From NCBI GenBank assembly GCA_910573745.1, contig CAJSYI010000009.1, forward strand, positions 1 to 64,000: DNA of 64,000 nt, given 5' to 3'. A program made the position numbers and the translations under genes. This stretch comes from Muribaculaceae bacterium. Its GTDB lineage: Bacteria; Bacteroidota; Bacteroidia; Bacteroidales; Muribaculaceae. The notes under the pieces were generated by a model. That model was not told where the DNA came from. It ran no database searches and saw only the letters and a list, made by a program, of their open reading frames with translations. Shown one piece after another: positions 1,201 to 20,760 of this stretch (positions are counted from its first letter, which is position 1; every line of letters starts with the position of its first letter).

Positions 1201-1217
1201 TTTCAACCTAATCGAGT

Positions 1218-1257
1218 AGGAGGTAAACACTAATTGCAGGTGTTTATCTCCTACTTT
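1218..1257 (-). other. Group II intron domain VI hairpin
   Basis: Arms of 15 bases pair except for one A opposite C, read on the minus strand as GTAGGAGATAAACAC and GTGTTTACCTCCTAC around a loop. Directly 5' of it on the minus strand lies domain V. The unpaired A is the expected kind of branch-point nucleotide. Confidence 0.65.
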
Positions 1258-1311
1258 CGTGTTTACCGACCTCTCACACCACCGTACGTGCCGTTCGGCA
1301 TACGGCGGTTC

Positions 1312-2709
1312 TTAACGCGGATGCAGTTTCTCGTAATATTCCATAAGTGTGGGATAGTGGGCGCGTTTCAAGTTCTCATTGGATATAGCACGTGTAAGTA
1401 TGGGGCTATGAACCGTGCGCCAATACCCCTTTCGGGTGTTGGCCCATTGCCATGCCTGCCACTTTGCAATGCCACATCGTTGTAGGTTCTTGAAGCGTGT
1501 TCGCACTCGTTTCCAGCATTTCCATATACACATGCGTATGCGGCTACGCAACCATTCGTCAGTTTCTTTCACAAAGTTGCGCATCTCGGCAAGCCGAAAG
1601 TAGTTGACCCACCCTCGGATGGCATTGGTCAGTTTCTCCTTGCGCTTCTCGTACCCCCAGCCGTTACTCCGCTTTGTCAGCTCCTTGAGTTTGGATCGGA
1701 GTTTTACTTTGGTTTTCGGATGAACGCACAAGCGAGCCTTTCCTCTTCACATGTTGAACGAGTAGCCGAGGAACTTCTGTCCGTGGACTCTGCCGACGTG
1801 AGTTTTCTCGCGATTCACTTTGAGGAAGAGTTTCCCCTCTATGAACTTCGTGATGCTTTCGCATACCCTTTCGGCCGCTCTCGGACTTTTACAGAAGATG
1901 ACGCAGTCATCGGCATAACGCACAAACGGAACTCCGCGCCTTTCAAGCTCGCGGTCAAGTTCCGTCAGCATTATGTTGCTCAGTATGGGACTGAGTAGTC
2001 CGCCTTGCGGCACGCCCTCCGTTGCGTCCTCATACTTGTGGCTGACCATTACGCCTGCTTTGAGATATTTGTGTATCAGGGATATGACTCTGCCGTCCTT
2101 GACTGTCTCGCCGAGCAGCTGTATCAGCTTGCTGTGGTTGACCGTGTCGAAGAACTTTTCAAGGTCTAAGTCCACGCAGTATTTATAGCCGCCATTGATG
2201 ATTTCCTGCGCCTTTTGCAGGGCTTGGTGTGCGCCACGTCTTGGGCGGAAGCCGTAGCTCGTGGCCGAAAATTCAGGTTCGTACACCAGGCTCAGCACCT
2301 GGGCTATGGATTGCTGGATTACGCGGTCAACAACGGTGGGTATGCCGAGTTGGCGCGTCTTGCCTCCCTCTTTGGGTATCTCTACCCTCCTTACGGGATT
2401 AGGGCGGTATCTTCCGCCAAGCAGACTTTCGGTTATTTCTTCCTTGTGTTCACGCAGATACGGAAGCAGTTGCTCTACTTCCATTCCGTCGATTCCACCG
2501 CTCCCCTTGTTGGCCTTGACTTGTCTGTACGCTCTGTTAAGGTTGTCGGGAGTCAGGATGTACTCCAACATCCTGTCTGACGATAGTTGCACTTCTACGA
2601 GTTCGTCTCCAGCCATCCCAATCAAAGTAGGCGCTCCCTCATACCTTTCGCGTTCCGCGCTATTCTTCCGAGGGCAGCTTTCTGATGTTTTCGGCTTTTC
2701 TCCTTTCAT
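1312..2709 (-). pseudogene. ltrA: Group II intron reverse transcriptase/maturase, broken by a stop
   Basis: The intron-encoded protein would be about 465 residues: a reverse transcriptase domain (residues about 40-300, with DLDLEKFFDTVNH, GVPQGGLLSP and the catalytic YADD near residue 265) followed by the maturase domain X (RSNGWGYEKRK, WVNYFRLAEM). I see no HNH endonuclease domain. At 1747-1749 an in-frame TGA splits it after FLGYSFNM. Translation in the same frame continues directly with RGKARLCVHPKTK, so a single base change (for example from CGA or TGG) explains the break. The intron is probably no longer self-mobile unless a related maturase acts in trans or the stop is read through. Confidence 0.85.
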
Positions 2710-3184
2710 CGGGTAAAATAAAGTTTTGCTCGTGTGGTTAAGTTTTGCCCTTCATCGCCGCCCACGAGCTTTAAGGCAACGATTACTATGGCATCTGCTG
2801 ACTTCTGTGGGTTCGTTGTTACTGCTTGCCTTGCGGCTCGACCCACAGACCTCCCCGATTAAGAACATAATCTTTCTGTCTTATACTCCCTTGATTTACT
2901 CGCGTCAGTCCGGATAGCTATCGGGCTTTGGTTTGTGTAGCAACCTTACCCCTGACTTCGAGCCTCGCATCAAGTTTCTGTTCGTGGAGCCAGACTTTTG
3001 TCCTTGGCTTCCTTCCGATTCTCCTCACGGCAGACACCGTTGCCTCGGACTATGCGCTTCCCGCTATCGGGGCGCGCTCGGGACTTTCACCCCTTAGATT
3101 ATGCCCATGTCGGGCAAACTACAAATGAATCAGGCGACCCTGACAGGCCGCCCGATACTCTATATCCTTTGGATAGGTCGTAAA

Positions 3185-4453
3185 TTAAATATTCTTATCC
3201 CGAACTCGCGTCTTTTGGTGGCTTGCGATTGCCTTTTCTATCCGTTGCTGATACTCGCTCACCTTGTTGCAAGCTGCACGGCATTGTACCACTTTGAGCG
3301 TCCGTAGGTCTATCTCCACGGTAGCCACTGTCTTGCCGTCTATTCGGGCAGAGAATACAAGGCTCTCGGCTTTGAGATAGTATTGGCTACTGCCGACGCA
3401 GATATGCTGTGTCCTGCCTTCTTCGTAATATTCGTCAACGCTGTCGAGGGTTTTGATTTCTATCTCATTGTCGGTGAACACAAGTCCGATGAAATGACCT
3501 TTCAGTTCCCTGAACTTTTCTTCATTCTCCAACGCCTTGATTCGGTCAGCTTCTCTGCGCTCCTTCTCTCGCTGGCGGTGTACTTTCTGCACATATTCAT
3601 CGTGTGCGTCAAAGAGATTGGCGGGGGCGATAAGTTTTGGCGAGTGGGTATCACGTCCGAAGCGTTCCAGCATACGCAGATAGTCATACCACGTTGAGAG
3701 GTCGGGGATTTCATATCCGTGACGCTTGGCGATTATATATGATGCCCAGAAGTGTTTTACCTCGTCGGTATGATATGCCATATATTTAAGCATATCTGTG
3801 TTGCCCTCTTTAATCAGTGTTTCGGCTTGCGGTGAGGAAAGGAGGATTGAAAAAAGTTTGATTGGGCGGATTTTGTGAAAATTGCCGTCAAATCCGTTTC
3901 TTGTGAGAGCCGGAATTACCTTGAATTTCGGATAGAGATATTGGTCGGAGATATAGCGGTAGATGTCGTTGTCTTTTCTTATCTCCATAGGATAACCGAA
4001 GGCAAAGCAGTCAAGATGCCAGCCCATTATGCGCGGAATAGCCACAAGCGCAGTCTTTCCGTCGGGGGCAATCCAATACTGCCCGATTTCCCGAAAGGCG
4101 GACGAAGCCTTGAACCCTTTTCGCATGTTCACCTCCATGAGAAACATTCGCAGTATCTGATACTCTCCGCAGGTGGCTATAACGTTGAGATAGGATTTCT
4201 GCTGACATTTGCGCTCTAATGTTTCCTTGACTTCAAGTTGAGCCTTGCAGTTGGGGCAGGTGCATTTGTCGGTGTGTCTGGTCATCAGCCACGAATGTCC
4301 GCAGTCCATACAAGTGGTGCGACCTTTCGGCAAGCGGTAGGCATAGTGGTCGATTGTGTTTCTGAATGCCCAACGACGGGGAGCGGTGGCGAGTGGGCGA
4401 AGATGCCCACTCTGTGCGATTACCGCCTTTTCAAGTTTCGTTCTCGGTTTCAT
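3185..4453 (-). CDS. PcfJ-like protein of a conjugative element, 3' end altered by IS
   Basis: A 422-residue protein resembling the PcfJ family found on conjugative elements of Firmicutes and Bacteroidota; its biochemical role is unknown. A four-cysteine zinc-ribbon (CMDC and CPNC) lies at residues about 48-70. A charged, probably coiled stretch follows near residues 290-330 (HRQREKERREADRIKALENEEK). The C-terminal region (YYEEGRTQHICVGSSQYY) is typical of the family. The last eight residues, TRVRDKNI, are encoded by the right inverted repeat of the adjacent IS982 element, so the native C-terminus has been replaced, probably by only a few residues. It lies just downstream of a PcfK-like gene in the same direction. 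Confidence 0.75.
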   Translation of the reverse strand: MKPRTKLEKAVIAQSGHLRPLATAPRRWAFRNTIDHYAYRLPKGRTTCMDCGHSWLMTRHTDKCTCPNCKAQLEVKETLERKCQQKSYLNVIATCGEYQILRMFLMEVNMRKGFKASSAFREIGQYWIAPDGKTALVAIPRIMGWHLDCFAFGYPMEIRKDNDIYRYISDQYLYPKFKVIPALTRNGFDGNFHKIRPIKLFSILLSSPQAETLIKEGNTDMLKYMAYHTDEVKHFWASYIIAKRHGYEIPDLSTWYDYLRMLERFGRDTHSPKLIAPANLFDAHDEYVQKVHRQREKERREADRIKALENEEKFRELKGHFIGLVFTDNEIEIKTLDSVDEYYEEGRTQHICVGSSQYYLKAESLVFSARIDGKTVATVEIDLRTLKVVQCRAACNKVSEYQQRIEKAIASHQKTRVRDKNI

Positions 4454-4465
4454 AGTCGTAATGTT

Positions 4466-4900
4466 TTAGAAGTCAAAAAGACTGCCTTGTTCAACTTTGG
4501 GTCTGTTCTCTGTCGCTTTCTTGGATTGCGAGGGTCTGCGCATCTTGGACGCTTCCTCATCACGGAGTTTTGCGATGGCGTCCTGCCGAGCCTGCTCCTT
4601 TTCCTCCTCGGTGAGTTCTACCGTGTGGTTCACCACCACTTGGCAGTTGACAGGCTTTCCGACCTCTATCTCGCTTTCTTCCCAGTAGTGGACTGCCATT
4701 CCGAATATTTCATCGTCCTCGAACCCGTTGCAACCGCTTTTCTGCACTTGGCAGATTATATAGGTGATGCACTCAGAGAGCGACTTTGAGGGATTGGCAT
4801 ATTTGACGGCGAACAATGCGTCAGACTCCGCCATATTGTCAAGATAAGTTCTGATTGTGTCTTGGAACGCCATAGTTCCTTTCATTGAGTTCTGTGCCAT
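4466..4900 (-). CDS. PcfK-like protein
   Basis: A 144-residue acidic protein beginning MAQNSMKGTMAFQDTIRTYLDNMAESD and ending in QGSLFDF. The N-terminal half, with SECITYIICQVQKSGCNGFEDDEIFGMAVHYW interrupted by no gaps, matches my knowledge of the PcfK family that accompanies PcfJ on conjugative plasmids and transposons. The residues after about 100 are charged and probably coiled (EEEKEQARQDAIAKLRDEE). It ends 12 bases before the pcfJ-like gene and starts 12 bases after a small membrane-protein gene, so the three are probably one operon. Function is unknown. Confidence 0.7.
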   Translation of the reverse strand: MAQNSMKGTMAFQDTIRTYLDNMAESDALFAVKYANPSKSLSECITYIICQVQKSGCNGFEDDEIFGMAVHYWEESEIEVGKPVNCQVVVNHTVELTEEEKEQARQDAIAKLRDEEASKMRRPSQSKKATENRPKVEQGSLFDF

Positions 4901-7580: not shown

Positions 7581-8214
7581 CGGATATTGAAAGGAATTTT
7601 TAACATCAATGATTGCTGTCGGTCAGACTATTATGGCTATCTTTGCGTTGTAGATATACGAAGAACATTGAAATTTCCGGGTGTGCAAAAAGGGAACATC
7701 CACGATTTTCAAGAATTCTAAAGTATTGATAGACAAAAGACTTAACCTCTGCCGAGATAAATCTCTCCGGGGTCACAATCAAAAATGGCAAAACGCCGCA
7801 AAGCACTGAAATCACTTGATTTTCAGTGCTTTTTCTTTTTGCCAAAATTTCAGAATGGCGCAGAATACAGAGGTGGTGAGTGAGTCATTCTACCGTTCCT
7901 CCGACTTTTTAGAATTGGTCAAAAAGTCGAATGTTCCCAAATGGAACGCAACCCCAATTTTCTCACGTTTCGTTTTATTTTGTCACACTACTTGGAACTG
8001 TCAAAAAATCAGAATCATCTATTACACTGATTATAAACATGATAGATAGGAACTGCCAATTTTACACCATATAAGTGTCTTTAAAAGGCATGCTCGGTAT
8101 AGACTTTATAATCAACAACTTGGCAGAGGAACTAATTTTTAGCGGCATGTTCCGTTTTGCACTTTATGTTTTGTGGATTACAAATAATTAAGTTAAACAG
8201 ATATGTAATATTTA
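7581..8214. other. Gene-poor AT-rich spacer
   Basis: Apart from the hairpin at 7785-7843 I see no gene or recognisable mobile-element end in this stretch. A remnant attachment site is possible here, because it separates the ATPase gene from the resistance operon, but no direct repeat was found to support that. Confidence 0.4.
7800..7835. terminator. Intrinsic terminator hairpin
   Basis: Perfect 12-bp arms AAAGCACTGAAA and TTTCAGTGCTTT around a 9-base loop, followed by a T-run. An outer pairing (TGGCAAAA near 7786 with TTTTTGCCA near 7837) extends the stem. It could serve either direction. Confidence 0.7.
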
Positions 8215-8838
8215 TTATTCTGTCATGTTTTCAATATTCCCAGCCATAATGAATGGTAGATTTCTTTTTATTCTATCCTTTGTCCAATCCCACCACCGAA
8301 GCGACAGTAGTTGCTCAATAATATCCGGGCTATACCGTTTGCGGATTACTTTTGCCGGTATGCCGCCAACGATAGAGTAAGGAGGAACATCCTTGGTTAC
8401 GACTGCTCTTGTTCCTATAATGGCACCATCTCCGATTTTTACACCGGCAAGAATAACTGCCTCAAAACCAATCCATACATCATTGCCTATCACGATGTCA
8501 CCTTTGTTGTCCCAAGCGGAGGCTACATTTGACTTTTCCAATTCCCAATCTTCATAAAACAGAGGAAAGGTATAGGTTGACAAGGATTTTAATGTATGGT
8601 TGGCACAGTTAAACAGAAACTTTACACCACAGGCAATGGAACAAAACTTGCCAATTATCAGTCGCTCATGATTAATAGGGTAATGATACAGCACATTATT
8701 CTGCTCGAACTGACGAGGGTCTGAGATAAAATCATTGTAAATCGTGTAATCACCTACCTCAATCGACGGGTCTTTAACCACTGCGTTCAGATAAACGGTT
8801 TGTGTGTCACCCTTACGGGGATATATTTTATTCATCAT
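8215..8838 (-). CDS. Vat/CatB-like streptogramin A or xenobiotic O-acetyltransferase
   Basis: A 207-residue left-handed beta-helix acetyltransferase. Hexapeptide repeats are visible around residues 115-165 ([29 protein letters not shown] and onwards), with the family ending [12 protein letters not shown]. The N-terminal part ([38 protein letters not shown]) has the His expected of the Vat/xenobiotic acetyltransferase group, which modifies streptogramin A or chloramphenicol with acetyl-CoA. Which drug, if any, it inactivates cannot be read from the sequence. Start ATG 8838 overlaps the stop of the MATE gene (ATGATGA), indicating translational coupling; a second ATG follows at once. Confidence 0.8.
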
Positions 8839-10139
8839 ATCCTGTTGTTTTTTGAATTGTATAATTTCAGATAAATAAAAGATTGAATACCGAGCATTAT
8901 CACATATAGATATTCCACGCTCCAATAAGTTGCCAATCGGACATTGAGATTACTCAATTCCCATAAGCAGAATAAATAGGCGGCAGTAGTGATTACTTGA
9001 AAAAAGAATACGGTCTTTGTCGCACCGGTACCAGTCACCGCATTGAGATAAATATAACCCGGCAGTGCGAAGAAGTAATTCAGAAGCATAACCACATATG
9101 GTTGCCATGCGATTTGCTTAACAACCGGATTTTCAGTATATGCCCCGATAATTAATGGATGAAGGAACAACGCAATAATAATCAATGGGGTGCCGATATA
9201 AAGCCCCAATCGGATTATCTTATGACAAAGCGGAAAAACAGCATTTCTCTCACCGGCACCAATTAAATTGCTTACCAAAGAGCTTGTGACAGCCGCAAAC
9301 GCAGTTACTATAACAGAGAATAAAGCGGAAACACTTCTTACAATATTAGATACCGCCAATTCGATTTCTCCCAATCTCTCTATAGCGATAAAAAACAAGA
9401 ACCAGATGGCTACGCTTGTAAAAAACTGGAGCATACTCCAGACAGAGACAGAAAACATCTCTTTTAGTATTTTTATGTCTATACGCCAAGATAAACCATA
9501 CTTGTGTTTTCTTACGCAAAGAAACATATAAGCTACCAATATCAACAATGAGCACAACTCTGCAAATGAAGAGCCGATAGCGGCTCCTGATATACCCATA
9601 TCATATCTGAAAATCAAAAGCCAATTGAGAGGAATGTTCATCAATACGGCAGTCAAAGCAGCTAAATTCAGAGGTCTTGTTTCTGTAATGCCGACTAAAA
9701 ACGAGCGGATGGCAAGAAACGGGAAAGAGAAGAACAATCCTATTATACGCCAATCCAGATACTTGACAACTGCATTATAGACTTCGGCAGAGGTAATCAG
9801 ATACCTTAATAGTTGCGGAGAAAAGAACTTTGACAACAGACAAAGTAATGACGCGAGCATCAGTAAGAAACACAGGCCTTGAAAAAACGTTTTTCCAGTT
9901 TCTTCGTATTTTTGTTCTCCGTTGCGTCGTGCAATTACAACTTGCAGCCCTACACTGAACCCTAAACCAAGCATATAGATTGCCAAGAACCATATTCCGG
10001 CAAGTGCGGATGCGCCAAGTTCGATTTCACCGACATGCCCCAAGAACAATGCATCGGTTATATTTATCAGTTGTTCAATAAGAAAGCTCATCATCACAGG
10101 ATATGCGATGAGCCATATTTGTTTATAGCTATAATTCAC
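8835..10139 (-). CDS. MATE-family multidrug exporter
   Basis: A 434-residue membrane protein with about 12 hydrophobic segments, the layout of MATE transporters that expel drugs in exchange for Na+ or H+. Typical family parts are [22 protein letters not shown] near residue 27, [19 protein letters not shown] near 58 and the duplicated half beginning near residue 230. It is the first gene of an operon with the Vat-like acetyltransferase and shares its stop with that gene's start. A long structured leader precedes it. The pairing of an exporter with a drug-modifying enzyme suggests a resistance cassette. Base composition is more AT-rich than the core genes of this window. Confidence 0.85.
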
Positions 10140-10267
10140 TTGTTCAAATCAATATGATAAGATACAGTAAGCCACACCACATAATGCGGTGTAACGCTGC
10201 CTAATGTAAAATGAAATTGTAAAATGGGGATATATGGCAAAGCAATAAAGGGCAGGCTTCGATAAGC

Positions 10268-10306
10268 CTACCTATTGCTGAATAGCATTGGTTGGGAGTG
10301 CTATTC
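10268..10306 (-). promoter_or_regulatory. Leader with six-codon ORF and hairpins, possible attenuator
   Basis: On the minus strand, ATG at 10288 opens the peptide MLFSNR and stops at 10268-10270. The ATG lies inside the 3' arm of a perfect 8-bp hairpin (10280-10306), and the stop overlaps a second hairpin (10254-10269, arms AGGCTT/AAGCCT). This arrangement in a 230-base leader of a resistance operon resembles drug-sensing ribosome-stalling attenuators, but no anti-terminator was proven. Confidence 0.4.
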
Positions 10307-10376
10307 GTTGAGCGTAGCTATATGCACAACTGCCATTTCATATTGTTGAACTGTGCTGTATTTTCGATTTGTTCCA

Positions 10377-10406
10377 CAAAGTTAATCATTATATATGAGT
10401 TTGCAA
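10377..10406 (-). promoter_or_regulatory. Promoter of the MATE-vat operon
   Basis: On the minus strand TTG (10404-10406) and the -7 box TAACTTTG (10377-10384) are 19 bases apart. The transcript would begin near 10370 and carry a leader of about 230 bases. Confidence 0.65.
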
Positions 10407-10431
10407 AATAATCCCTTTTTGAGTGAGTGTT

Positions 10432-10669
10432 ATGGCAGCTACGGTAAATCCGTATCCCTCAGTCTTCTACCAGTTGGTTAACTCCTGCGCTGTGCCACGG
10501 ACGAATTTCATCGCCGTGACAATCACTGCGCCGGGTGGAAGTTTCTCCACCTCGTCTTTTGCAGCCTCCATCGTCTCGACTGTAATCGGTTCGTTGCCGG
10601 ACTTGACAAGCAGACCAGCCTAAGCCGACGGTCTGATTCGGAGGCATCTACAATGAGGATTTTGTTCAT
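10432..10669 (-). pseudogene. Decayed response-regulator receiver fragment
   Basis: The minus strand begins MNKILIVDASESDRRL, a receiver-domain opening, then shifts frame and continues as GLLVKSGNEPITVETMEAA and KLPPGAVIVTAMKFVRGTAQELTNW before an in-frame TAG, after which KTEGYG follows in the same frame. One frameshift, one stop and loss of the rest leave it dead. The pattern resembles the receiver of regulators carried by Bacteroidales conjugative elements (RteB-like), which is an impression rather than a proven match. Confidence 0.6.
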
Positions 10670-10780
10670 TGTTAGATAAATTTAGATTATTAGAATACAC
10701 AGTCAGATACGCTCCATGAAAGAGCATGAAACGTATCTGAGTTTTGTGGTTATTTGTCAGAATATCACATAAGCCATGTA

Positions 10781-11704
10781 TTATTTGGTGCGGCTTACCA
10801 CATGTATGGTTTTGCCTTCTTTATCGAGCAAATTCAGTTTAAGATTCTCTTTGTCGGCGGTCAGGACAGAGAATCCGGGAGAATCGTTGCAAAATACGGT
10901 GCCCTCGATTTCTTTCGGAGTCCGTGTGAGGGAGCCGGATGTGTTGACCACATAGTCGATTTTTGAATCCCGGCGGCGGATGTGCTGGTAATTGTGGATA
11001 TGACCGCAGATATACATGTCCACGTTGTGCTTCCGCAGGATTGTGTCAACTTTCTTCTGCATATCAGTCCGCTCGGATTCCGACTTGTCGGTATCGGCAT
11101 AGATGGGATGATGACCGACCACAACGATCCAGTCTTCCGTCGCCTCGGTCAAAGTCTTTTCGAGCCATTGCAGTTGGGCTTCGGTATCCTGATTTACAGC
11201 ATCGGGATATGTGTCGGTCTTTTTCCGATACTTGTCAATCAATGGTGTGGTGTCGAGAAATACCACCTTGACAGTTGTCCCGTCATCTTCAAAGGTCTTG
11301 GCGTAATATCTCGCAGGCATCTCCCAACGTCGGGATATGCCGGAATAGTCGATAACCGCCTGAGTGTTGCCGCGATATTCATGGTTGCCGCAGACGGGAT
11401 ACCAGTTCACCATAAGCTCCGGGTGGTCGTAGATAAGCTCATAGTTGGTCATCCACAAGGGGTCTGTCACACTTTCCACTCCGCCGTAGTGATGTGTGTC
11501 GCCAAGAGCAAGAATGGCATCGGGGCCTATTTGTTCCGCAATTCTGCCCATCATCGCTGCAACGGGCTTCTGGTCATAGTGACCATTACGTCCGAGGTCT
11601 GACACTACCATCAGATTCACATCGCCTTTGGCGATTTCAGTCTGGGCAATGGCTCCAAAAGAGGGGATGAGAGCCAAAGCCGCGATAAGTAATTTACGAA
11701 TCAT
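10781..11704 (-). CDS. Secreted calcineurin-like acid phosphatase
   Basis: A 307-residue metallophosphoesterase with a signal peptide (residues 1-20, ending GAIAQ), similar to tartrate-resistant purple acid phosphatases. Metal-binding motifs appear in order: SDLG near 36, GDTHHYG near 68, GNHEY near 108, GHHPIYAD near 196 and GHIHNYQH near 232. It should release phosphate from organic phosphate esters outside the cytoplasm. The gene starts 12 bases after the stop of the TonB-dependent receptor gene, so the two are one operon. The surrounding regulators and transporters point to phosphate scavenging. Confidence 0.8.
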   Translation of the reverse strand: MIRKLLIAALALIPSFGAIAQTEIAKGDVNLMVVSDLGRNGHYDQKPVAAMMGRIAEQIGPDAILALGDTHHYGGVESVTDPLWMTNYELIYDHPELMVNWYPVCGNHEYRGNTQAVIDYSGISRRWEMPARYYAKTFEDDGTTVKVVFLDTTPLIDKYRKKTDTYPDAVNQDTEAQLQWLEKTLTEATEDWIVVVGHHPIYADTDKSESERTDMQKKVDTILRKHNVDMYICGHIHNYQHIRRRDSKIDYVVNTSGSLTRTPKEIEGTVFCNDSPGFSVLTADKENLKLNLLDKEGKTIHVVSRTK

Positions 11705-11716
11705 TGTTTTGTATAT

Positions 11717-14467
11717 TTAGAATGTTACTTTTACACCTCCGTTGAGTTTCACTCCGTAATACTCCTGCTGCATCGTGTAGTCCTTGCTGCCTTGATAATA
11801 GCGCAGAGGTTGGTTGAGGAGGTTATTGCAGTCGGCATATACGGTTATTTTTGTTTTGCGCCCGAATGTGTAGCTGACGTTAAGGTCCAGATATTTCACG
11901 GCATCATAGTATCGGTCGTAGAACGAACTTGCGCCCATTTCGTCGATAAATGCCGAGGCATAGTTGAACGAGGCTCTTGCGGAGAAACCGCATTTGTCGA
12001 AATACAGCGAGAGATTGGCTGTATGCTCGGGAGAACCGGGAAGACTAAGGCCTTTCTCGTTTTCACGACCCTCGAAGTTGAAGTCGGTAATGCGTGAGTG
12101 GGTATAGGTATATGTGGCGTAAAGACCGAGACATTTCATCGCCGGCGTGATGAAGCTGAAATCGCGCTGCCATGCCATTTCCACTCCGAAAAGATTAGCG
12201 TTTCCACCGTTTTTAGGTTGTGTGAACTTAGTCCAGACAGTACCCTGATACTCCTTGTTATAAGCCACCTCATCAACGATGAATCCTTCTATTCTTTTAT
12301 AGAAAATTCCGGCGGACACAAGTCCGATTGATTTCCAGTAATATTCAGCGTTGAGGTCGATATTGTGAGATGTCGTTGCTTTCAGACCGGGATTCCCGAT
12401 CCTTATCTCATTGTCGCCACGCTTGATATTCATGCCGGGAACGAGTGCGGAATATTTTGGCCGGGATATGGACTGGTTATAACCGGCACGCAGCATGAAA
12501 TCCTTGTTGATGTCCCATTTCAATAATAATGAGGGAAGGAAATTTATATAATTTGAAGTTTCAGGCTCGGTCTTGGAGACACTGTTGGATTCATCATCGT
12601 AATTTCTGCCTATGTAACGCAGTGATGTGTTCTCGACACGCAGACCGCCCATAAAGTTAAGGTTGTCGGAAAGTCTGGAATCAATACGCACATAACCTGA
12701 TGCCACATTCTCCCTCGCATGGAAATTGCCCGCAAGTTCCTCTGCAATTTGCTCTCGCTCAAATAAATTGGGATCGTCAAGATTGAGGGAGCCAAGAAAT
12801 TTCTTGTCAACGAATGTGCCGGTCTGATATTTTGAGGAAGGCATGAATCTGTCGGTACTTTGGTCTGCGGTATGTGCAAGCGCATCCGCGTTAAATGCCT
12901 TTTTGTCAAGCGGAGTATATTCGTAATAATCTATCTCCTTGTCTTTTGTCTTGTTCACAAACTTGAAGCCGAACTTGATTTTTGAGCGTTCGCTAAGTCG
13001 GGCCTTGAAATCCAGTGCCGCCTTGAAGTCCTGCTCCACAATATTCTCCTGCTGCTGTGTAAGCTCTTTGAGCGAGAAGTCATCGTTAAGGGTCATTGTA
13101 TATCCCTCGTCGGGAGTGGCAAATGGCTCTCTCGGATTGCTCAGGTCGAAACTGAACCTCTGAGATTTGAGCCGATAGTCGATGTAACGCTCATTCGGAC
13201 GTTCCTCCGTTGCGCGGGCATATCCCAGTTTCCAGTCCATGTCAAGTATCCCTAAACGGTTCTCGCCTCCCAAAGTGAAATCCATTGTCCTCTGGCGTTC
13301 AAGACGGGCGTTTCTCTCATCGCCCGAACCTCCTTTTGTCTGGACACGCACATCGGCTTTCCCTTCGGGCGTAATGTCTTTGAGTGTTGTCCTGTAACGA
13401 TTTTCCCAATCATTACGGTTGTTGAAAATACCCTTGAACCAGACCTTGTTGAAGTCATTGAACTTCCAGTCGAGCGACAATGAGTAGCTCTGTCGCTCTC
13501 GTGTGACATAATACTGCCTTATCTGATAGTCGTTGACATAGATTTTGCCGTCGTCATCCTTTTCCCATATAAACTCCGTGTTGTAGGATCCGGCGGGTGC
13601 ATTATTATAGGAGGCCGCAAGCATCACTCCGAAGCGGTCATTGAAGAAACGGTTACCGAGAGTGAGTCCGAAATTCATCTGCGCCTTACGGCTTATCCAG
13701 TTGTAGCCTGTTCCCGCTACGGCTCCGACAGTAAATCTGTGTGGCGAATTTTTCGTAACGAGATTGATTGACCCGCCGATGGCATCGCCATCTTGATCCG
13801 GCATAAGTGTCTTGCTGACCTCTATTGTCTGAATCATATCGGACGGTATAAGGTCAAGCTGGACATTGCGAATGTCTCCCTCGGCTGACGGCAGTCTTGA
13901 CCCGTTGATTGTCACCGAACTGAACTCAGCCGGAGTTCCGCGCACCTGACCGAAACGGGCCTCGCCCTGATCATACTGCACATTGATACCGCTTATACGT
14001 TTCAGAGCATCTCCGATATTCGAGTCGGGGAATTTGCCAATCTGGTCGGCAGACACCACATTGGTTATATTGATATTATTCTTTTGGGCATTTATGGCTC
14101 TCTGCTGCCCGGAGAAAACGCCAGTCACTACAACTTCATTCAGTTCCTGTGATGTATCCGACATTACAATGTCGTCAACCGTCGATTCTTCCGAAACCAC
14201 GATTGTTTTACTGACCGGAAGAAAACCAATATACGTTACTTTCAGATTATGATTCCCGGATAACAGATTGGCAAACGAGAAAAAGCCGTCGAGATCCGTA
14301 ACCGCCGACAGCTTGTTGCCGTCGATGATAACCACCGCTCCCGGCAGCGGGTTCTTCTCATTGTCAAGGATGCGGCCTTTAAGTTGTCCGTATTTCGGAC
14401 TGTCAGCCGCCATAATGGTCAGACTTGAAGCAAGTGCGACCAAAAAAGTTGACATTAATTTTTTCAT
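11717..14467 (-). CDS. TonB-dependent outer-membrane receptor
   Basis: A 916-residue receptor: signal peptide (MKKLMSTFLVALASSLTIMAA), a carboxypeptidase-regulatory-like domain (about 30-110, GRILDNEKNPLPGAVVIIDG), a plug (about 130-250, IGKFPDSNIGDALKRISGINV and RGTPAEFSSVTINGSRLP), then a 22-stranded type barrel ending in Phe (GVKVTF). Start ATG 14467 was preferred over an upstream in-frame alternative because it begins the signal peptide. Being co-transcribed with a phosphatase and facing a PhoB-like regulator suggests it imports a phosphate-containing compound; the ligand is unknown. A Pho-box-like promoter lies directly upstream. Confidence 0.85.
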   Translation of the reverse strand: MKKLMSTFLVALASSLTIMAADSPKYGQLKGRILDNEKNPLPGAVVIIDGNKLSAVTDLDGFFSFANLLSGNHNLKVTYIGFLPVSKTIVVSEESTVDDIVMSDTSQELNEVVVTGVFSGQQRAINAQKNNINITNVVSADQIGKFPDSNIGDALKRISGINVQYDQGEARFGQVRGTPAEFSSVTINGSRLPSAEGDIRNVQLDLIPSDMIQTIEVSKTLMPDQDGDAIGGSINLVTKNSPHRFTVGAVAGTGYNWISRKAQMNFGLTLGNRFFNDRFGVMLAASYNNAPAGSYNTEFIWEKDDDGKIYVNDYQIRQYYVTRERQSYSLSLDWKFNDFNKVWFKGIFNNRNDWENRYRTTLKDITPEGKADVRVQTKGGSGDERNARLERQRTMDFTLGGENRLGILDMDWKLGYARATEERPNERYIDYRLKSQRFSFDLSNPREPFATPDEGYTMTLNDDFSLKELTQQQENIVEQDFKAALDFKARLSERSKIKFGFKFVNKTKDKEIDYYEYTPLDKKAFNADALAHTADQSTDRFMPSSKYQTGTFVDKKFLGSLNLDDPNLFEREQIAEELAGNFHARENVASGYVRIDSRLSDNLNFMGGLRVENTSLRYIGRNYDDESNSVSKTEPETSNYINFLPSLLLKWDINKDFMLRAGYNQSISRPKYSALVPGMNIKRGDNEIRIGNPGLKATTSHNIDLNAEYYWKSIGLVSAGIFYKRIEGFIVDEVAYNKEYQGTVWTKFTQPKNGGNANLFGVEMAWQRDFSFITPAMKCLGLYATYTYTHSRITDFNFEGRENEKGLSLPGSPEHTANLSLYFDKCGFSARASFNYASAFIDEMGASSFYDRYYDAVKYLDLNVSYTFGRKTKITVYADCNNLLNQPLRYYQGSKDYTMQQEYYGVKLNGGVKVTF

Positions 14468-14500
14468 TGTGATTGTTGTTTTTGTTTCTGATTCACGCTG

Positions 14501-14557
14501 CAAAATTCGCTAACTAATATTTCATGGGTTTATCACATTTGTTTAGATTTTATGAAA
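14501..14557 (-). promoter_or_regulatory. Candidate Pho box and promoter of the TonB receptor operon
   Basis: On the minus strand four hexamers 11 bases apart, TTTCAT, CTAAAC, TGATAA and TGAAAT, end exactly 10 bases before a -7-like box GAATTTTG (14501-14508). The same spacing recurs upstream of the phosphate transporter and of the PhoU-like gene. Confidence 0.55.
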
Positions 14558-14568
14558 TAAATTGTGTC

Positions 14569-14590
14569 ATTAAACTTTTATTAAACTTTT
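14569..14590. repeat. Perfect 11-bp tandem direct repeat, possible extra PhoB site
   Basis: ATTAAACTTTT occurs twice back to back between the divergent TonB receptor and response regulator genes. Its complement gives TTTAAT twice at 11-base spacing, the same hexamer that starts the Pho-box-like arrays at 17227 and 19676. Confidence 0.55.
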
Positions 14591-14606
14591 GAGCATTAGG
14601 ACTGTA

Positions 14607-14630
14607 TTTGACCTATTATTAGTAATTTTG
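14607..14630 (+). promoter_or_regulatory. Promoter of the two-component operon
   Basis: TTTGAC at 14607-14612 and the -7 box TAATTTTG at 14623-14630, only a few bases before ATG 14635. The transcript would have a very short or no leader. Confidence 0.5.
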
Positions 14631-14634
14631 CGGC

Positions 14635-15330
14635 ATGGAAACAAAAAAGAAGATACTTGTTGTCGATGATGAGGAAGCCCTGTGTGACGGCCTTGGATTC
14701 AATCTTGAAGCGGAAGGCTATCAGGTCGACATGGCGTATAGCGCGGAGGAGGCTCTTGCCCTCAACCTTGCCGCCTATGACTTGATACTCCTCGATATTA
14801 TGATGGGGGAAATATCCGGGACTCAACTGGCACGCATAATGAAGTCGAATCCGGCAACGGCCTCCGTTCCCATCATATTCTGCACAGCAAAAGACACGGA
14901 GGAGGATATGATTTCGGGACTCGATCTCGGGGCTGATGACTATATCATGAAGCCATATTCTCTTAATGCTGTGCTTGCCCGAATAAGGACTGTGCTTCGC
15001 CGTACGGCGGCTTCTGTCGCACTTGCCAAGGCTGATTCCGACCTTGTTTCATACAAGGGGCTGGTACTGTCTGCAAAAAACAGGACCTGCACGGTTGATG
15101 GTACGGAGGTGAAAATGCCTAAAAAGGAGTTTGAGATATTGCTTAAACTAATCTCAAATTCGGGGCAGGTTTTCACCCGCGCGGATTTGCTCAACGAGAT
15201 ATGGCCCGACGAGGTTGTGGTGCTCGACAGGGTTGTAGATGTGAACATAACCCGTATCCGCCAGAAAATCGGCATCTACGGCAAGAATATTGTAACTCGC
15301 TCGGGGTACGGTTATGGGTTCATTGAATAA
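14635..15330 (+). CDS. PhoB/OmpR-family response regulator
   Basis: A 231-residue regulator: receiver domain (1-120) with the acidic pocket VVDDEE, the phospho-acceptor Asp54 in LILLDIMMG, Thr84 and Lys106 (YIMKP). A winged-helix DNA-binding domain (about 135-231, KKEFEILLKLISNSGQVFTRADLLNEIW, RIRQKIG, TRSGYGYGF) follows. Its 3' end overlaps the histidine kinase gene by 17 bases, so they are a pair. Neighbouring phosphatase, TonB receptor, PiT transporter and PhoU-like protein make phosphate starvation the likely signal, which is inference from context. Confidence 0.85.
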   Translation: METKKKILVVDDEEALCDGLGFNLEAEGYQVDMAYSAEEALALNLAAYDLILLDIMMGEISGTQLARIMKSNPATASVPIIFCTAKDTEEDMISGLDLGADDYIMKPYSLNAVLARIRTVLRRTAASVALAKADSDLVSYKGLVLSAKNRTCTVDGTEVKMPKKEFEILLKLISNSGQVFTRADLLNEIWPDEVVVLDRVVDVNITRIRQKIGIYGKNIVTRSGYGYGFIE

Positions 15331-16762
15331 GCTCTCCTATCCGCAGCGGCTGTTCGTGTGGCTTCTTGGATATTCCTTGCTGATGGTAGGCTGCTTTGTC
15401 GTGTTTCAGTATCATAGGGAAAAGGAATTCAAAGCGGAAGAGATTGACAAGCAGCTCCAGCTTATCAATACATATATTCTTACAGAACTAAGAGAGGGAC
15501 ACGATGTCCCGGATATCAGACTCGACGATTTCAAACCGTTTGACGATATCCGTGTCAGCGTAATTTCCGACAAAGGACATATAATATATGACAACACACT
15601 TGATTCCCTGCCTAAAACCAACCACCTTGACCGTCAGGAAATACGGGATGCCGTACGGCATGGGGCGGGCTACGCTGTAAGACGGCACAGCGAGAGTACG
15701 GGCAACTACTATTTTTACTCGGCGAAAAAGAGCGATGACGGGAATATTGTCCGTACTGCGGTGCCATATTCGGTTTCATTCAGAGGACTGTTGCAGGCCG
15801 ATTATGGCTTTCTGTGGATTATGGGGATTATCACAATGGTGATGTGCGTACTTGGCTATTTCGCAACCCGAAGGGTCGGCCTCCACATAATCAGGCTGAA
15901 CAGATTTGCGGAAAACGTAGAAAACGGTGCCCAGATTTCCGACACCGAACCGTTCCCCCATGACGAGCTTGGCGAGATTTCAAACCACATTGTCCGCCTT
16001 TATGCCCGTTTGCAACAGGCTGTCGCCGACAGGGACAGCGAACATCGCGCAGCCCTCCATGAACAGCTTGAAAAGGAACGCATCAAAAAGCAACTCACGA
16101 ATAACATAAACCACGAACTGAAAACCCCGGTCGCATCAATCAGGGTCAGTGTGGAGACGATGCTGGCACACAGGAATATGAGCGATGAAAAGCAGATATT
16201 GTTCCTGCAACGTTGTCTTACAAACACAGAAAGGCTCCAAAGGCTTCTGACCGATGTCTCGCTCCTGACACGCATGGACGACGGAAGCGCCTCTATATTG
16301 AAAGAACAGGTTAATCTCACGGATATAATAAATGACGTGGTTGAGGACCGACAGATAATCGCCGACACAAAGGGCATAAGGATTGAGAATTTTGTTTCTC
16401 ATAACGTAATCATGGCCGGTAATGCTTCTCTGCTTGAGGCCGTTTTCAACAACCTTATAGACAATGCGATTGTTTATAGTGGAGGAACCAGAATAAAAAT
16501 AGAATTAATCAGTATCGACAACGATAAAGTTGTAATTGCATTGTCCGACAACGGATGCGGCGTTCCTCCCGAACACCTGCCAAGACTGTTTGAAAGGTTC
16601 TATCGCATTGACAAGGGACGGTCACGAGCGGCCGGTGGCACCGGACTCGGGCTTTCGATAGTGAAAAACGCCGTGATTCTTCATGGCGGTGAAATCTCCG
16701 CCGAAACTCAATGCTCAGGCGGATTATTGTTCAAAATAACATTTTCAAGAAACTCAAAATGA
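15314..16762 (+). CDS. PhoR-like sensor histidine kinase
   Basis: A 482-residue inner-membrane sensor with two transmembrane segments (about 12-30 and 170-190) flanking a periplasmic domain of about 135 residues. A HAMP-like linker follows, then a HisKA domain with His267 in NHELKTPVASIR. The ATPase domain shows NNLIDNAIVYS, DNGCGVPPEHLPRLFERFYR and GGTGLGLSIVKN. It should autophosphorylate and pass phosphate to the response regulator encoded just upstream. Its stop overlaps the start of mgsA (ATGA), so the kinase and methylglyoxal synthase are translated from one message. Confidence 0.85.
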   Translation: MGSLNKLSYPQRLFVWLLGYSLLMVGCFVVFQYHREKEFKAEEIDKQLQLINTYILTELREGHDVPDIRLDDFKPFDDIRVSVISDKGHIIYDNTLDSLPKTNHLDRQEIRDAVRHGAGYAVRRHSESTGNYYFYSAKKSDDGNIVRTAVPYSVSFRGLLQADYGFLWIMGIITMVMCVLGYFATRRVGLHIIRLNRFAENVENGAQISDTEPFPHDELGEISNHIVRLYARLQQAVADRDSEHRAALHEQLEKERIKKQLTNNINHELKTPVASIRVSVETMLAHRNMSDEKQILFLQRCLTNTERLQRLLTDVSLLTRMDDGSASILKEQVNLTDIINDVVEDRQIIADTKGIRIENFVSHNVIMAGNASLLEAVFNNLIDNAIVYSGGTRIKIELISIDNDKVVIALSDNGCGVPPEHLPRLFERFYRIDKGRSRAAGGTGLGLSIVKNAVILHGGEISAETQCSGGLLFKITFSRNSK

Positions 16763-17205
16763 AGACAAAACTAAAAATCGCGCTTGTAGCTCACGACCAA
16801 CGCAAAGCCGATATGGTCGATTGGGTAAAATTCAACGCCCAATACCTTTCACAGCATGAGCTGGTATGTACCGGCACGACTGGAGGGCTTATAAAGAATG
16901 CTTTATCAGAAGCAGGAATAGATGTCCAAGTCGAATGTATGAACTCCGGGCCGATGGGCGGTGACGCCGAAATAGCCGCAATGGTGGTAAGAAACGAGAT
17001 TGATCTTGCCATATTCCTGATAGACGACCTCAATGCGCAGCCCCACGAGGCGGACATTCAGATGCTTTTGCGTCAATGCCGGCTCCACAACGTGCCGATC
17101 GCCTGCAACAGAATAAGTGCGGACCTGATGATTTCAAGCCGTCTGTGGGATGACCCTACATATAAACCCATCGAACAGAGCTATATACGGTTTGACCGCA
17201 ATTAA
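16759..17205 (+). CDS. mgsA: Methylglyoxal synthase
   Basis: A 148-residue enzyme that turns dihydroxyacetone phosphate into methylglyoxal and free phosphate. Family marks include IALVAHDQRKADM at the N-terminus, the phosphate-binding CTGTTGGLI near 44-52, the catalytic Asp in GPMGGDAEIAAM near 71, and FLIDDLNAQPHEADIQMLLRQC. Start ATG 16759 overlaps the kinase stop. Known bacterial enzymes are inhibited by phosphate, so expression with a phosphate-responsive system would let the cell regain phosphate from sugar phosphates under starvation; that logic is inference. Confidence 0.9.
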   Translation: MKTKLKIALVAHDQRKADMVDWVKFNAQYLSQHELVCTGTTGGLIKNALSEAGIDVQVECMNSGPMGGDAEIAAMVVRNEIDLAIFLIDDLNAQPHEADIQMLLRQCRLHNVPIACNRISADLMISSRLWDDPTYKPIEQSYIRFDRN

Positions 17206-17226
17206 ACTCTCTGTCAGTCCGGCAGT

Positions 17227-17283
17227 TTTAATAAATGGTTAAGGATTTTGAAATAATCATGAAATGTTTTCTTAGTTACTTTG
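17227..17283 (+). promoter_or_regulatory. Candidate Pho box and promoter of the PiT gene
   Basis: Hexamers TTTAAT, GTTAAG, TGAAAT and TGAAAT start at 17227, 17238, 17249 and 17260, each 11 bases apart. They are followed after exactly 10 bases by TTACTTTG (17276-17283), a near match to the -7 box. Confidence 0.6.
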
Positions 17284-17309
17284 CGGCAGAATAAGTAATT
17301 GAGATAACA

Positions 17310-19592
17310 ATGGAAATACTGTTTCTTTACGTAGTAATTTTTCTTTTCCTGCTGGCTGTGTTTGACCTGTCAGTAGGTGTGAGTAACGATGCTGTCAACT
17401 TCCTGAACTCGGCTATCGGGTCTAAGGCGGCATCATTCAAAAGAGTCCTGATTGTCGCTTCCATCGGTGTTTTCATCGGTGCGGCGATGAGCAACGGTAT
17501 GATGGAGATTGCCCGGCACGGAATTTTCCGTCCCGAGCATTTTTCATTTTATGACCTTATCTGCATCTTCATGGCGGTAATGGTCACGGACATCATCCTT
17601 CTCGACGTGTTCAACTCGCTGGGTATGCCGACATCGACAACCGTGTCAATGGTTTTCGAGCTGCTGGGTGCCACCTTTGTCGTTGCATTGATTAAAATGG
17701 CAGGAGGCATCGGTCTCGGTTTCGATGACTTGCTTAACACGGAGAAAGCCCTGTCGGTGATTCTCGGAATATTCCTGTCGGTGGCGATAGCCTTTTTCTT
17801 CGGAACGGTGGTGCAGTTCATATCCCGTATGGTGTTCTCGTTCAATTACCGGAGCAACCTGAAATGGAAGATAGGAATATTCGGAGGTATATGTGCAACT
17901 GCGATTGTTTACTTTCTTCTGATTAAAGGGGCTAAAGATCTTTCTTTCATGACCCCTGAACTGAAAGCGTGGATAAAAAACAATACTGCGCTGATCATAC
18001 TGTCCTGTTTCGCAGTTTTTACAGTGCTGATGCAACTGCTCCATGTCTGCAAGGTTAATGTGCTGAAAGTAATTGTGCTGATGGGTACATTCTCGCTTGC
18101 CGTGGCATTTGCAGGTAATGACCTTGTGAACTTCATAGGTGTTCCCTTGAGCGGTCTGGCTTCATATCAGGATTTTATGGCTAACGGCGGAGGGGACTCC
18201 AAAGGTTTCCTTATGGATTCACTTAACGGCCCGGCAAATACACCGATATATTTCCTCATCGGTGCCGGAGTCATAATGGTGGTGTCACTTGCAACGTCAA
18301 AAAAAGCCCGGAATGTGACCAAGACTGAAATCGGTCTCGGAAGCCAGCAGGGTGGCGATGAGATGTTTGGTTCTTCCCGCATTGCCCGGCGGCTGGTAAG
18401 ATGGACCTTATCATTCCTTTCTTGGTTAAGGCGTGTCACACCCGCGAAAGTACGCCGTTGGTTCAACCGTCGTTTTAATGTGGATGAGACCATTATGGAT
18501 CAAGGTGCGGCTTTCGACCTCATACGCGGCTCTGTCAATCTGGTGCTTGCCGGAGCGCTCATTGCCCTCGGCACCTCGCTGAAACTGCCCCTGTCAACCA
18601 CTTTCGTAACATTTATGGTCGCTATGGGTACTTCTCTTGCCGACAGGGCATGGGGGCGTGAAAGTGCTGTGTTCCGCATCACCGGCGTGATTTCCGTAAT
18701 CGGCGGTTGGTTTCTTACTGCGGGTGCGGCGTTTATCGGCGCAGGACTGATTGTTGCAGCAATGCACTATGGTGGTCTGTGGGTGATGCTTCTGTTGGCG
18801 GCTTTGACGATATTCATAATCATCAACAGCAACCGGAGGTTCAGAAAGAAGACAGAAGAAGATAACGGTGATGCACTGTTCCAGACTATAATATCCACTC
18901 AGGATCGGGAGCAGACATGGCCGTTGCTTATGATGTATATCACCGAGCAACAAGAGAAGTTCATGACCTATGCCGAGGAAAAATACCGGGATATAACATC
19001 GGCTTTCATAACTGAGAGCGCCGGGATTCTCGGCAAGACGGAATCGAGTCTCGCCCGCCAGAAGACCATACTTAAAAACGCCCGCCGTAAGGAAACTCTA
19101 TGTCTGCGTCATTTGACACGCGAGATGGCGATAGAAAAAAGCACTTGGTTCTATCTCAGCAACAACTGCTGTATGGGCATACTTTACAACCTGCGCCGCA
19201 TCAACGAGGTCTGCAAAGAGCATGTCGACAACAATTTCCTTCCTCTGCCTCCCAAATATACTACTGAATACGAGATGATACGGACACAAATAAGTACACT
19301 GTTCAATGATACCGTCAAACTTATGGGGAGCGGGGATACAGATACGATAAGCACTCTTCGCCGACACTGTGACGAGATAAAGGATACTGTTTCCGACACA
19401 TATCATCGTGTGCATGACCAGCTCCGCGACGGAGACACATCGGCAATGGCTGTTCTGTATGTCTATGTCAATATGCTTCAGGAAACGCAGGAAATGGTAT
19501 CGTCAATAAGGAAATATCTGCGGGCGTTTGCCAAGCTGCGCGACTCAGATTTCCGCACACGCCCTGCCAAAATTATGGTACCAACAACATAA
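17310..19592 (+). CDS. PiT-family inorganic phosphate transporter with PhoU-like tail
   Basis: A 760-residue protein. The N-terminal 500 residues hold about ten membrane segments and the duplicated PiT signature, first copy FDLSVGVSNDAVNFLNSAIGSK (split across residues 19-40) and second copy in RGSVNLVLAGALIALGTSLKLPLSTT near 405. PiT carriers import phosphate with H+ or Na+. The last 230 residues are helical and soluble and resemble PhoU, a layout seen in Bacteroidota PiT proteins. Its promoter carries a Pho-box-like array. A terminator hairpin follows. Confidence 0.85.
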   Translation: MEILFLYVVIFLFLLAVFDLSVGVSNDAVNFLNSAIGSKAASFKRVLIVASIGVFIGAAMSNGMMEIARHGIFRPEHFSFYDLICIFMAVMVTDIILLDVFNSLGMPTSTTVSMVFELLGATFVVALIKMAGGIGLGFDDLLNTEKALSVILGIFLSVAIAFFFGTVVQFISRMVFSFNYRSNLKWKIGIFGGICATAIVYFLLIKGAKDLSFMTPELKAWIKNNTALIILSCFAVFTVLMQLLHVCKVNVLKVIVLMGTFSLAVAFAGNDLVNFIGVPLSGLASYQDFMANGGGDSKGFLMDSLNGPANTPIYFLIGAGVIMVVSLATSKKARNVTKTEIGLGSQQGGDEMFGSSRIARRLVRWTLSFLSWLRRVTPAKVRRWFNRRFNVDETIMDQGAAFDLIRGSVNLVLAGALIALGTSLKLPLSTTFVTFMVAMGTSLADRAWGRESAVFRITGVISVIGGWFLTAGAAFIGAGLIVAAMHYGGLWVMLLLAALTIFIIINSNRRFRKKTEEDNGDALFQTIISTQDREQTWPLLMMYITEQQEKFMTYAEEKYRDITSAFITESAGILGKTESSLARQKTILKNARRKETLCLRHLTREMAIEKSTWFYLSNNCCMGILYNLRRINEVCKEHVDNNFLPLPPKYTTEYEMIRTQISTLFNDTVKLMGSGDTDTISTLRRHCDEIKDTVSDTYHRVHDQLRDGDTSAMAVLYVYVNMLQETQEMVSSIRKYLRAFAKLRDSDFRTRPAKIMVPTT

Positions 19593-19625
19593 AGTCTAAG
19601 GTAAAAAAGATTGTTCCTAAGGTTG

Positions 19626-19655
19626 AGATGGGAGTGCATATCTCCCATCTTTTTG
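19626..19655 (+). terminator. Intrinsic terminator after the PiT gene
   Basis: Arms AGATGGGAG and CTCCCATCT (9 bp) with a 7-base loop, followed by TTTTTG. Confidence 0.75.
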
Positions 19656-19675
19656 TATTATAACTGATTGATAAA

Positions 19676-19732
19676 TTTAATATTTATCTAATATCTCAGA
19701 CATAAACGTGAAATATAAATATGGTTACTTTG
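19676..19732 (+). promoter_or_regulatory. Candidate Pho box and promoter of the PhoU-like gene
   Basis: Hexamers TTTAAT, TCTAAT, AGACAT and TGAAAT at 19676, 19687, 19698 and 19709, then 10 bases to TTACTTTG (19725-19732). The first and last hexamers and the spacing are identical to the array before the PiT gene. Confidence 0.6.
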
Positions 19733-19754
19733 CATCAAAGAAATTCTATAAATC

Positions 19755-20453
19755 ATGTACGTTACAGTTCTCTCGATAATGGCTCTGGCCGGAATCATCG
19801 TTATGTTGCGACGGCATATCCGCAGACGTAAGGTCAAGGAAATGTATTGTATTATTCCCAATAGTCCTGTCGGAAAGTCTTGTTTGACCGTGACGATGCA
19901 GTTATGCGGTCCGATTATCGACAAAGCGTTGAAATGTCTTTCAAACAATGACAGTATAGCCGTTTGCAAGAATCATCGAATCGGGTCAGAAACCATTGAC
20001 ATAATCAGTGAGAAAGTCCGGAATTGTTCGGCGGACTCTGATGATACTATCGGCAAGACTGCGCTATATTGTGAATATATGCTTGAGGCTACGGACAAGA
20101 TTGCCGAAACCACACGTCATCTTGTCACTTCCCCGGATGGCTATATACCTATCTCTTACAAATGTGAGATCGAAACAATTCGTGGAGGGATTGTCCGACT
20201 GTCTCAATTAGCTGACAGCATACTCAGTTCAGATGTTGATACAGTGAAGATTAATGGAGATGCGGGCTTGGAGAAAGATTTTATCGAACACAGCATCGCC
20301 ATACATTCCAAAGGGATGACCCATGAAGATTTTGATGAAGGAGCCCCCTCATATTCCTATCTGATGCTCTTGTATTATCTACATTCCTTTATCAGTTCCT
20401 TTCTACAGGCAATCAAAAACATTAAAACAAGCAATAAACCAATGACAGCATGA
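19755..20453 (+). CDS. Small PhoU-like helical protein with N-terminal membrane anchor
   Basis: A 232-residue protein with one hydrophobic segment at residues 3-18 followed by a basic stretch (RRHIRRRKVK), then a mostly helical soluble region. The helical part resembles the PhoU-like tail of the upstream PiT protein in spacing and in blocks such as ALYCEYMLEATDKIAETTRHL. I do not recognise a named family, so PhoU-like is tentative. Its own promoter carries the same Pho-box-like array as the transporter. The stop overlaps the start of the next, truncated gene. Confidence 0.5.
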   Translation: MYVTVLSIMALAGIIVMLRRHIRRRKVKEMYCIIPNSPVGKSCLTVTMQLCGPIIDKALKCLSNNDSIAVCKNHRIGSETIDIISEKVRNCSADSDDTIGKTALYCEYMLEATDKIAETTRHLVTSPDGYIPISYKCEIETIRGGIVRLSQLADSILSSDVDTVKINGDAGLEKDFIEHSIAIHSKGMTHEDFDEGAPSYSYLMLLYYLHSFISSFLQAIKNIKTSNKPMTA

Positions 20454-20650
20454 AACGGATTTTAATTATGACGGCATTGTCAGTATTTGCATTGTCTGCC
20501 GTGGCTCAGGATAAAAATCCATTTATCCCGGAGCATCCGCTCAAGGGATTGAATTTTCCTGAGTTGAGCCTGTCCGTTCCGGTTAATCTGACATATTGTC
20601 GCATGCTGAGAGTCGATGGTTTTCTGCATCGACTCAATCTGGGCGGATAA
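20450..20650 (+). pseudogene. Truncated secreted-protein gene, 5' part only
   Basis: The first 20 residues form a signal peptide (MKRILIMTALSVFALSAVAQ), followed by DKNPFIPEHPLKGLNFPELSLSVPVNLTY. From about 20595 the sequence instead belongs, on the other strand, to an IS66-type transposase remnant. The gene therefore kept its start and lost everything downstream. Position after the PhoU-like gene (ATGA overlap) suggests the lost product belonged to the phosphate block, perhaps an outer-membrane protein. Confidence 0.55.
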
Positions 20651-20760
20651 TCCGCGCAGCACTTCTGTTATGTCATTAACCGGCTGTTTCACAGATACAA
20701 AGATAGCGGTTTTATCTGACAAAAGCAAATAAAACCGCATCTAATTTCTTTAAAAGAAAC
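20595..20760 (-). mobile_element. IS66-type transposase remnant
   Basis: On the minus strand a GTG start near 20688 gives VKQPVNDITEVLRGLSAQ, then IESMQKTIDSQHATICQI, the coiled-coil N-terminus style of IS66 TnpC. It is cut off near 20595. Upstream are a -7-like TATCTTTG and an imperfect hairpin (AGATGCGGTTTTAT paired with ATAAAACCGCTATCT, about 20698-20740). Confidence 0.45.

Follow-up and report, generated by a model that had tools for sequence, protein, structure and literature searches.

An array of four hexamers in 11-base steps, placed exactly 10 bases upstream of a promoter element, is present at three promoters of a phosphate gene module in a Muribaculaceae bacterium. The array has a fixed period and spacing, lies close to a gene for a PhoB-type regulator and, throughout the class, is specific for genes of phosphate metabolism and uptake. 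It is very probably the Pho box of the Bacteroidota, in which four half-sites for PhoB, at about -61 to -23, would drive the transcription of phosphate-uptake genes. The sequence-only reading of the analysed stretch (the window, 64,000 nucleotides) had proposed a Bacteroidales form of the Pho box, and its proposal was right in substance, as judged by the specificity of the array for phosphate genes and its conservation upstream of the PiT transporter gene.

Array geometry and the phosphate module

The promoters of the PiT gene (17227-17283) and of a gene termed "PhoU-like" (19676-19732) agree in their first (TTTAAT) and fourth (TGAAAT) hexamers, the 11-base steps, the 10-base gap, the -7 octamer and the total length of 57 bases, all of which can be read from the sequence as had been reported, while hexamers 2 and 3 are not alike (Table 1). 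The promoter of a TonB-dependent receptor gene (minus strand, 14558-14499) had been grouped with them and does belong there as a weaker member, the next-best site of the window reaching 7.4 bits. The skeleton TTTAAT-N27-TGAAAT-N10-TTACTTTG has exactly two matches in the window, at 17227 and 19676, and none in 100 Markov-shuffled windows searched on both strands. When TGAAAT-N10-TTACTTTG was scanned with two mismatches allowed, perfect matches occurred only at these two arrays and the remainder were about as frequent as with a reversed-pattern control. Two further hexamers, TTTAAT-N5-TTTAAT, are located on the minus strand between the TonB array and phoB (14568-14586).

Table 1. Arrays, promoter elements and genes of the phosphate module (window coordinates; hexamers in capitals, spacers in lower case)
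Feature	Position	Strand	Description
Pho-box array of PiT	17227..17265	+	TTTAAT aaatg GTTAAG gattt TGAAAT aatca TGAAAT; 11-base steps; 44.5 bits (profile R1); kept in PiT orthologues
-7 promoter element of PiT	17276..17283	+	TTACTTTG, Bacteroidota TAnnTTTG type; 10 bases (gttttcttag) past the array
Pho-box array of PhoU-like gene	19676..19714	+	TTTAAT attta TCTAAT atctc AGACAT aaacg TGAAAT; 11-base steps; 24.1 bits
-7 promoter element of PhoU-like gene	19725..19732	+	TTACTTTG, after ataaatatgg
Pho-box array of TonB receptor	14519..14557	-	TTTCAT aaaat CTAAAC aaatg TGATAA accca TGAAAT; 20.2 bits, genome-wide E 0.0012
-7 promoter element of TonB receptor gene	14501..14508	-	GAATTTTG, after attagttagc
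Metallophosphoesterase	10781..11704	-	Pfam Metallophos; downstream of TonB receptor
TonB-dependent receptor with CarboxypepD_reg domain	11717..14503	-	Probable start ATG near 14467
Response regulator PhoB, proposed array binder	14635..15330	+	NCBIfam NF053854 RespRegPhoBBctds, equivalog, 329 bits (cut-off 270)
Sensor kinase PhoR	15314..16762	+	HisKinPhoRBctds, 466 bits, slightly under cut-off of 500
Methylglyoxal synthase MgsA, between phoR and PiT	16760..17205	+	NF003559, 2.8e-50 for ORF 16711-17205; start near 16760
PiT-type inorganic phosphate transporter, 760 aa	17310..19592	+	Pfam PHO4, 5.8e-23
232-aa "PhoU-like" protein, family unconfirmed	19755..20453	+	First gene of an operon reaching a phosphate-selective porin in relatives (seen in L320)
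Phosphate-selective porin gene, 5' remnant	20450..20532	+	Ends at 20532 here; intact copy Porin_O_P 3.5e-11

A refined consensus, TTTAAY-N5-YYTAAY-N5-TGAAAY-N5-TGAAAY-N10-TANTTTTGC, was derived from 92 distinct sites at pst loci of related genomes, with the second hexamer position (YYTAAY) being the more degenerate. Using a matrix of the array alone, from which the -7 element was omitted, TNNNTTTG was found 10 bases downstream in 84 of 95 cases, at 21 bases (10 + 11, one repeat off register) in 10 cases and at 6 bases in one. Conversely, anchoring on the last hexamer and the -7 element placed TKWAAY hexamers at -11 in 79 and at -33 in 39 of 91 sites, with other offsets near zero. Within the -7 octamer, the logo of the pst-locus sites shows T at 0.98, a mixture of A and T at the second base, TTTG at 0.98-1.00 and a following C at 0.89; the plus-strand copies in the window carry T at the second base. 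The octamer conforms to the Bacteroidota -7 element, TAnnTTTG, of primary-sigma promoters (PMC9723704). Accordingly, the array and the 10-base gap of the originally claimed consensus hold, but TTACTTTG lies outside the box and represents the ordinary -7 promoter element. The direct repeats in 11-base steps thus come shortly before the -10/-7 element and occupy the place of a -35/-33 element. For Flavobacterium psychrophilum, the -7 element is reported to span positions -12 to -5 (PMC9723704); if this numbering applies here, the half-sites would be situated at -61 to -56, -50 to -45, -39 to -34 and -28 to -23.

The label "PhoU-like" was not confirmed for the 232-aa protein, which has no Pfam match, showed no BLASTP match to the PhoU-like end of PiT (E 0.065) and yielded an all-helical AlphaFold model of low confidence (pLDDT 45). 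The porin gene behind it is broken off in the home genome, i.e., the genome to which the window belongs, and nearly all compared copies lose homology at 20532 (region 20450-20660). Upstream of phoB, a -7-like TAATTTTG (14623-14635) ends 4 bases 5' of the ATG, and the phoB message may therefore be leaderless. The mgsA gene is part of the phoBR-PiT cluster (16760-17205) and has an array of its own in one relative (L207:8536-8596); Pho control of the methylglyoxal bypass is possible.

Specificity and conservation of the array

A sequence-only profile (R1) was built from 19 PiT promoters of other genomes and contains no sequence of the home genome. In its training alignment, A is invariant at columns 7, 18, 29 and 40, a period of exactly 11. 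Matches in a single genome above an E value of about 0.001 were taken as noise. Searching the 3.08-Mb home genome with R1 returned four sites, located upstream of PiT (4.5e-11), a second PiT gene on contig C34 (9e-5), the PhoU-like gene (1.2e-4) and the TonB receptor gene (1.2e-3), followed by a fifth match at the level of noise (E 0.29). Since PhoU-like and TonB receptor genes were absent from the training set, the recovery of their sites is an independent success of the profile. The same four sites were identified with a second profile (R2) trained on 45 diverse sites, one of which is near-identical to the PiT promoter of the home genome. The site on contig C34 (G000:C34; L076:7611-12071) belongs to a second phoB-phoR-PiT cluster, in which the array is located between phoR and PiT.

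A search for phosphate transporters found no pstC in the home genome, and its phosphate uptake may consequently rest on PiT. For this reason, the test on pst loci was carried out in relatives, using 80 loci from Bacteroidales metagenome-assembled genomes (MAGs) labelled as several families and outside the R1 training set. R1 identified 95 sites at E<0.01, of which 93 were on the sense strand. A plain weight matrix with a threshold of at least 20 bits gave 95 sense and two antisense matches in 74 of the 80 loci, as compared to a mean of 0.03 matches for 60 column-permuted matrices on the same loci. The genes following 98 pst-locus matches code for phosphate-type porins (66), Na/Pi cotransporters (21), PstS (5), PiT (2), PstC directly (2), a TonB receptor (1) and MgsA (1).

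In the wider order, all 17 matches at E<=1e-4 among 198 genomes (home genome and training set excluded) precede porins, PiT, PstS, phoB, TonB receptors or small CarboxypepD proteins, including one (G333) that is not immediately followed by a clear intact gene but is nearly identical to the porin site of another genome (G230), and one (G308) that precedes a 438-aa family read as a porin from the weak Porin_O_P match of a relative. Across the class, R2 located sites upstream of phoB, PstS, PiT, porins, TonB receptors, PhoX and metallophosphoesterase genes, with some matches lacking a clear gene, and further target types in the order and class scans were GDPD, PAP2 and polyphosphate kinase (Ppk). 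Genome-wide, the array is therefore specific for phosphate-regulon genes. The scope of the box had been given as Bacteroidales, in which it is indeed present, but it is not confined to them and occurs in other orders of the class as well. In these other orders, a family of 420-455-aa outer-membrane-like proteins was repeatedly found behind the box (L145:1597-2910, L314:200-1477, L302, L311 and L313), mostly without a Pfam match and with one weak Porin_O_P match. This family is likely a family of phosphate porins.

Among PiT orthologues of the family, down to an identity of about 46-58%, nearly all carry four hexamers in 11-base steps at exactly 10 bases from the -7 element, and shuffled versions of the upstream regions never reached the array scores of the real promoters. 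Near-identical island copies (96-97%) were excluded as independent evidence of conservation. More distant PiT types or paralogues (36-39% identity) were found without the array, some of them directly after phoR. Two outcomes had been named as speaking against a Pho box, namely equal frequency of matches before unrelated genes and loss of the array in relatives that keep the gene. Neither was observed, as all four home-genome sites and nearly all sites in the 80 pst loci are at phosphate genes, and nearly all genomes with this type of PiT retain the array.

The candidate regulator and alternative explanations

The home genome encodes both PhoB and PhoR, with two proteins above the cut-off of NF053854 and an adjoining PhoR-type kinase. 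Of the 77 strong array matches in the home family, 46 have a PhoB gene no more than 6 kb away, and some of the matches to the PhoB model represent a second PhoB-like paralogue. In Bacteroides fragilis (PhoRB being BF1575-BF1576), the expression of pstC at low phosphate depends on PhoB, which in electrophoretic mobility shift assays binds a fragment of 512 bp from the pstC promoter (PMC3547664). A comparison of the recognition helices of E. coli PhoB (DRTVDVHIRRLR) and Bacteroidota PhoBs (DRVVDVNITRIR) revealed that R201 and R203 are retained, while H198 is replaced by N and R200 by T, changes that would fit an altered half-site, TGWAAY for TGTCAT. Neighbourhood and orthology thus point to PhoB as the probable ligand of the array.

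In the proposed model, low phosphate would be sensed by PhoR, which would in turn phosphorylate PhoB. Its half-sites would be the 11-base direct repeats (consensus TKWAAY), which read TGAAAY or TGTAAY at the two positions closest to the promoter, and two PhoB dimers would be arranged head to tail on four of them, between about -61 and -23. The dimers may stand in for a -33 element that is weak or not clearly present and would recruit or hold the primary-sigma RNA polymerase at the -7 promoter, leading to transcription of phosphate uptake genes. The putative targets in the window are PiT, the operon of the PhoU-like and porin genes, and the TonB receptor gene together with its phosphatase gene.

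It is improbable that the array is bound not by the adjacent PhoB but by another regulator of the OmpR family that happens to act on phosphate genes, such as the second PhoB-like paralogue, which is not clustered. Such a role would agree with the presence of more than one regulator above the PhoB-model cut-off in many genomes of the family and with the 31 of 77 strong arrays that have no listed PhoB gene within 6 kb, a number partly owed to short contigs. However, the array recurs beside phoB and before phoB itself in other families, both phoB genes of the home genome are part of phoBR-PiT clusters carrying an array, and it is PhoB that directly binds the pstC promoter in B. fragilis (PMC3547664).

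Two further explanations dispense with a phosphate regulator or with a shared element altogether, and both are extremely improbable. Being rich in A/T and followed by a standard -7 element, the hexamers might form a general UP-like element of strong Bacteroidota promoters, yet the genome-wide scan finds only four such promoters, a scarcity that refutes this explanation; in addition, column-permuted profiles of the same composition match nothing, and the invariant A columns and the period of exactly 11 bases argue against it. Similarly, the likeness of the two window arrays, which are 2.4 kb apart and have their first and fourth hexamers in common, might be ascribed to a recent promoter duplication or to chance. 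Against this, the spacers and hexamers 2 and 3 are not alike, the 100 shuffled windows contain no match, and the recurrence of the pattern at unrelated genes in many families refutes both. The assignment of the array to PhoB is therefore preferred.

Relation to known Pho boxes and significance

The Pho box of E. coli consists of 11-base direct repeats of CTGTCAT to which PhoB binds head to tail, immediately 5' of the -10 element and at the place of a -35 element (PMC4415409; PMC3348028). The array resembles it in its 11-base direct repeats, the proposed regulator of the OmpR/PhoB family, the replacement of the -35 element and the position before phosphate genes, and the E. coli phoB promoter (TTTCAT-N5-TGTCAT-N5-TGACGC) shows the same step. 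In contrast, neither the R1 alignment nor the pst-locus sites exhibit the half-site TGTCAT but TGWAAY instead, usually with four half-sites and a fixed 10-base gap to the Bacteroidota -7 element, and the array is therefore a variant and not the E. coli form. In both layout and letters, it comes closest to the PhoP box of Bacillus subtilis, which comprises TTAACA-type hexamers in 11-base spacing, usually four, i.e., four A/T-rich hexamers on which a regulator of the PhoB family binds as two dimers, although phylum, promoter and sigma factor differ.

Within the Bacteroidota, the window regulator passes the NCBI Bacteroides PhoB model, and the B. fragilis PhoRB/pstC system likewise has PhoB at a phosphate promoter, but that study names the concept of a Pho box without defining its sequence (PMC3547664). 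For Riemerella anatipestifer, DAP-seq of PhoP, which belongs to a two-component system induced by phosphate starvation, yielded 583 peaks with TTTAACA as the most conserved letters of a motif called ArcA-like (PMC9603813). By its motif letters, TTTAACA matches half-site 1 of the array (TTTAAC), whereas a layout of four half-sites with a fixed -7 gap does not appear in the consulted passages of that report. On the Bacteroidetes Pho box, the open-access literature yielded only papers on B. fragilis, Flavobacterium and Riemerella. The impression that such a box had not been described hence holds in that no Bacteroidota Pho box was found in this literature, but is to be qualified by the motif published for Riemerella PhoP. 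The array is the variant, in one lineage, of an element that is well known, and it has partial precedents.

A 12-kb block of the window at about 8.2-20.53 kb (8190-20532), which comprises the phoBR-mgsA-PiT-TonB-phosphatase genes, recurs with 94-98% nucleotide identity in genomes of several other genera, yet most genomes of the home genus lack it, and it has therefore moved horizontally. To the left of the phosphate module, at 202-4900, mobile-element genes are found, namely a DDE transposase, PcfJ/PcfK genes and a group II intron reverse transcriptase/maturase divided between two ORFs.

A wider, combined view is somewhat more likely than not. In this view, a class-wide Pho box of four half-sites, locked 10 bases from the -7 element, defines the phosphate regulon of Bacteroidota from the gut and the environment, with TonB receptors, phosphate porins and perhaps also methylglyoxal synthase among its members. 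In Muribaculaceae-like bacteria, a complete phoBR-PiT-porin-TonB module that brings its own boxes would be transferred between genera as a phosphate island under its own regulation, here in a genome without a Pst transporter. Among the Gram-negative bacteria of the gut, the Bacteroidota are the main group, and the survival of B. fragilis in abscesses is governed by PhoB. A profile that picks four promoters from 3 Mb renders the phosphate regulon predictable and testable in any Bacteroidota genome and hints at what orphan TonB receptors and porins may do, and the array promoters would provide ready-made phosphate-inducible promoters for Bacteroides genetics.
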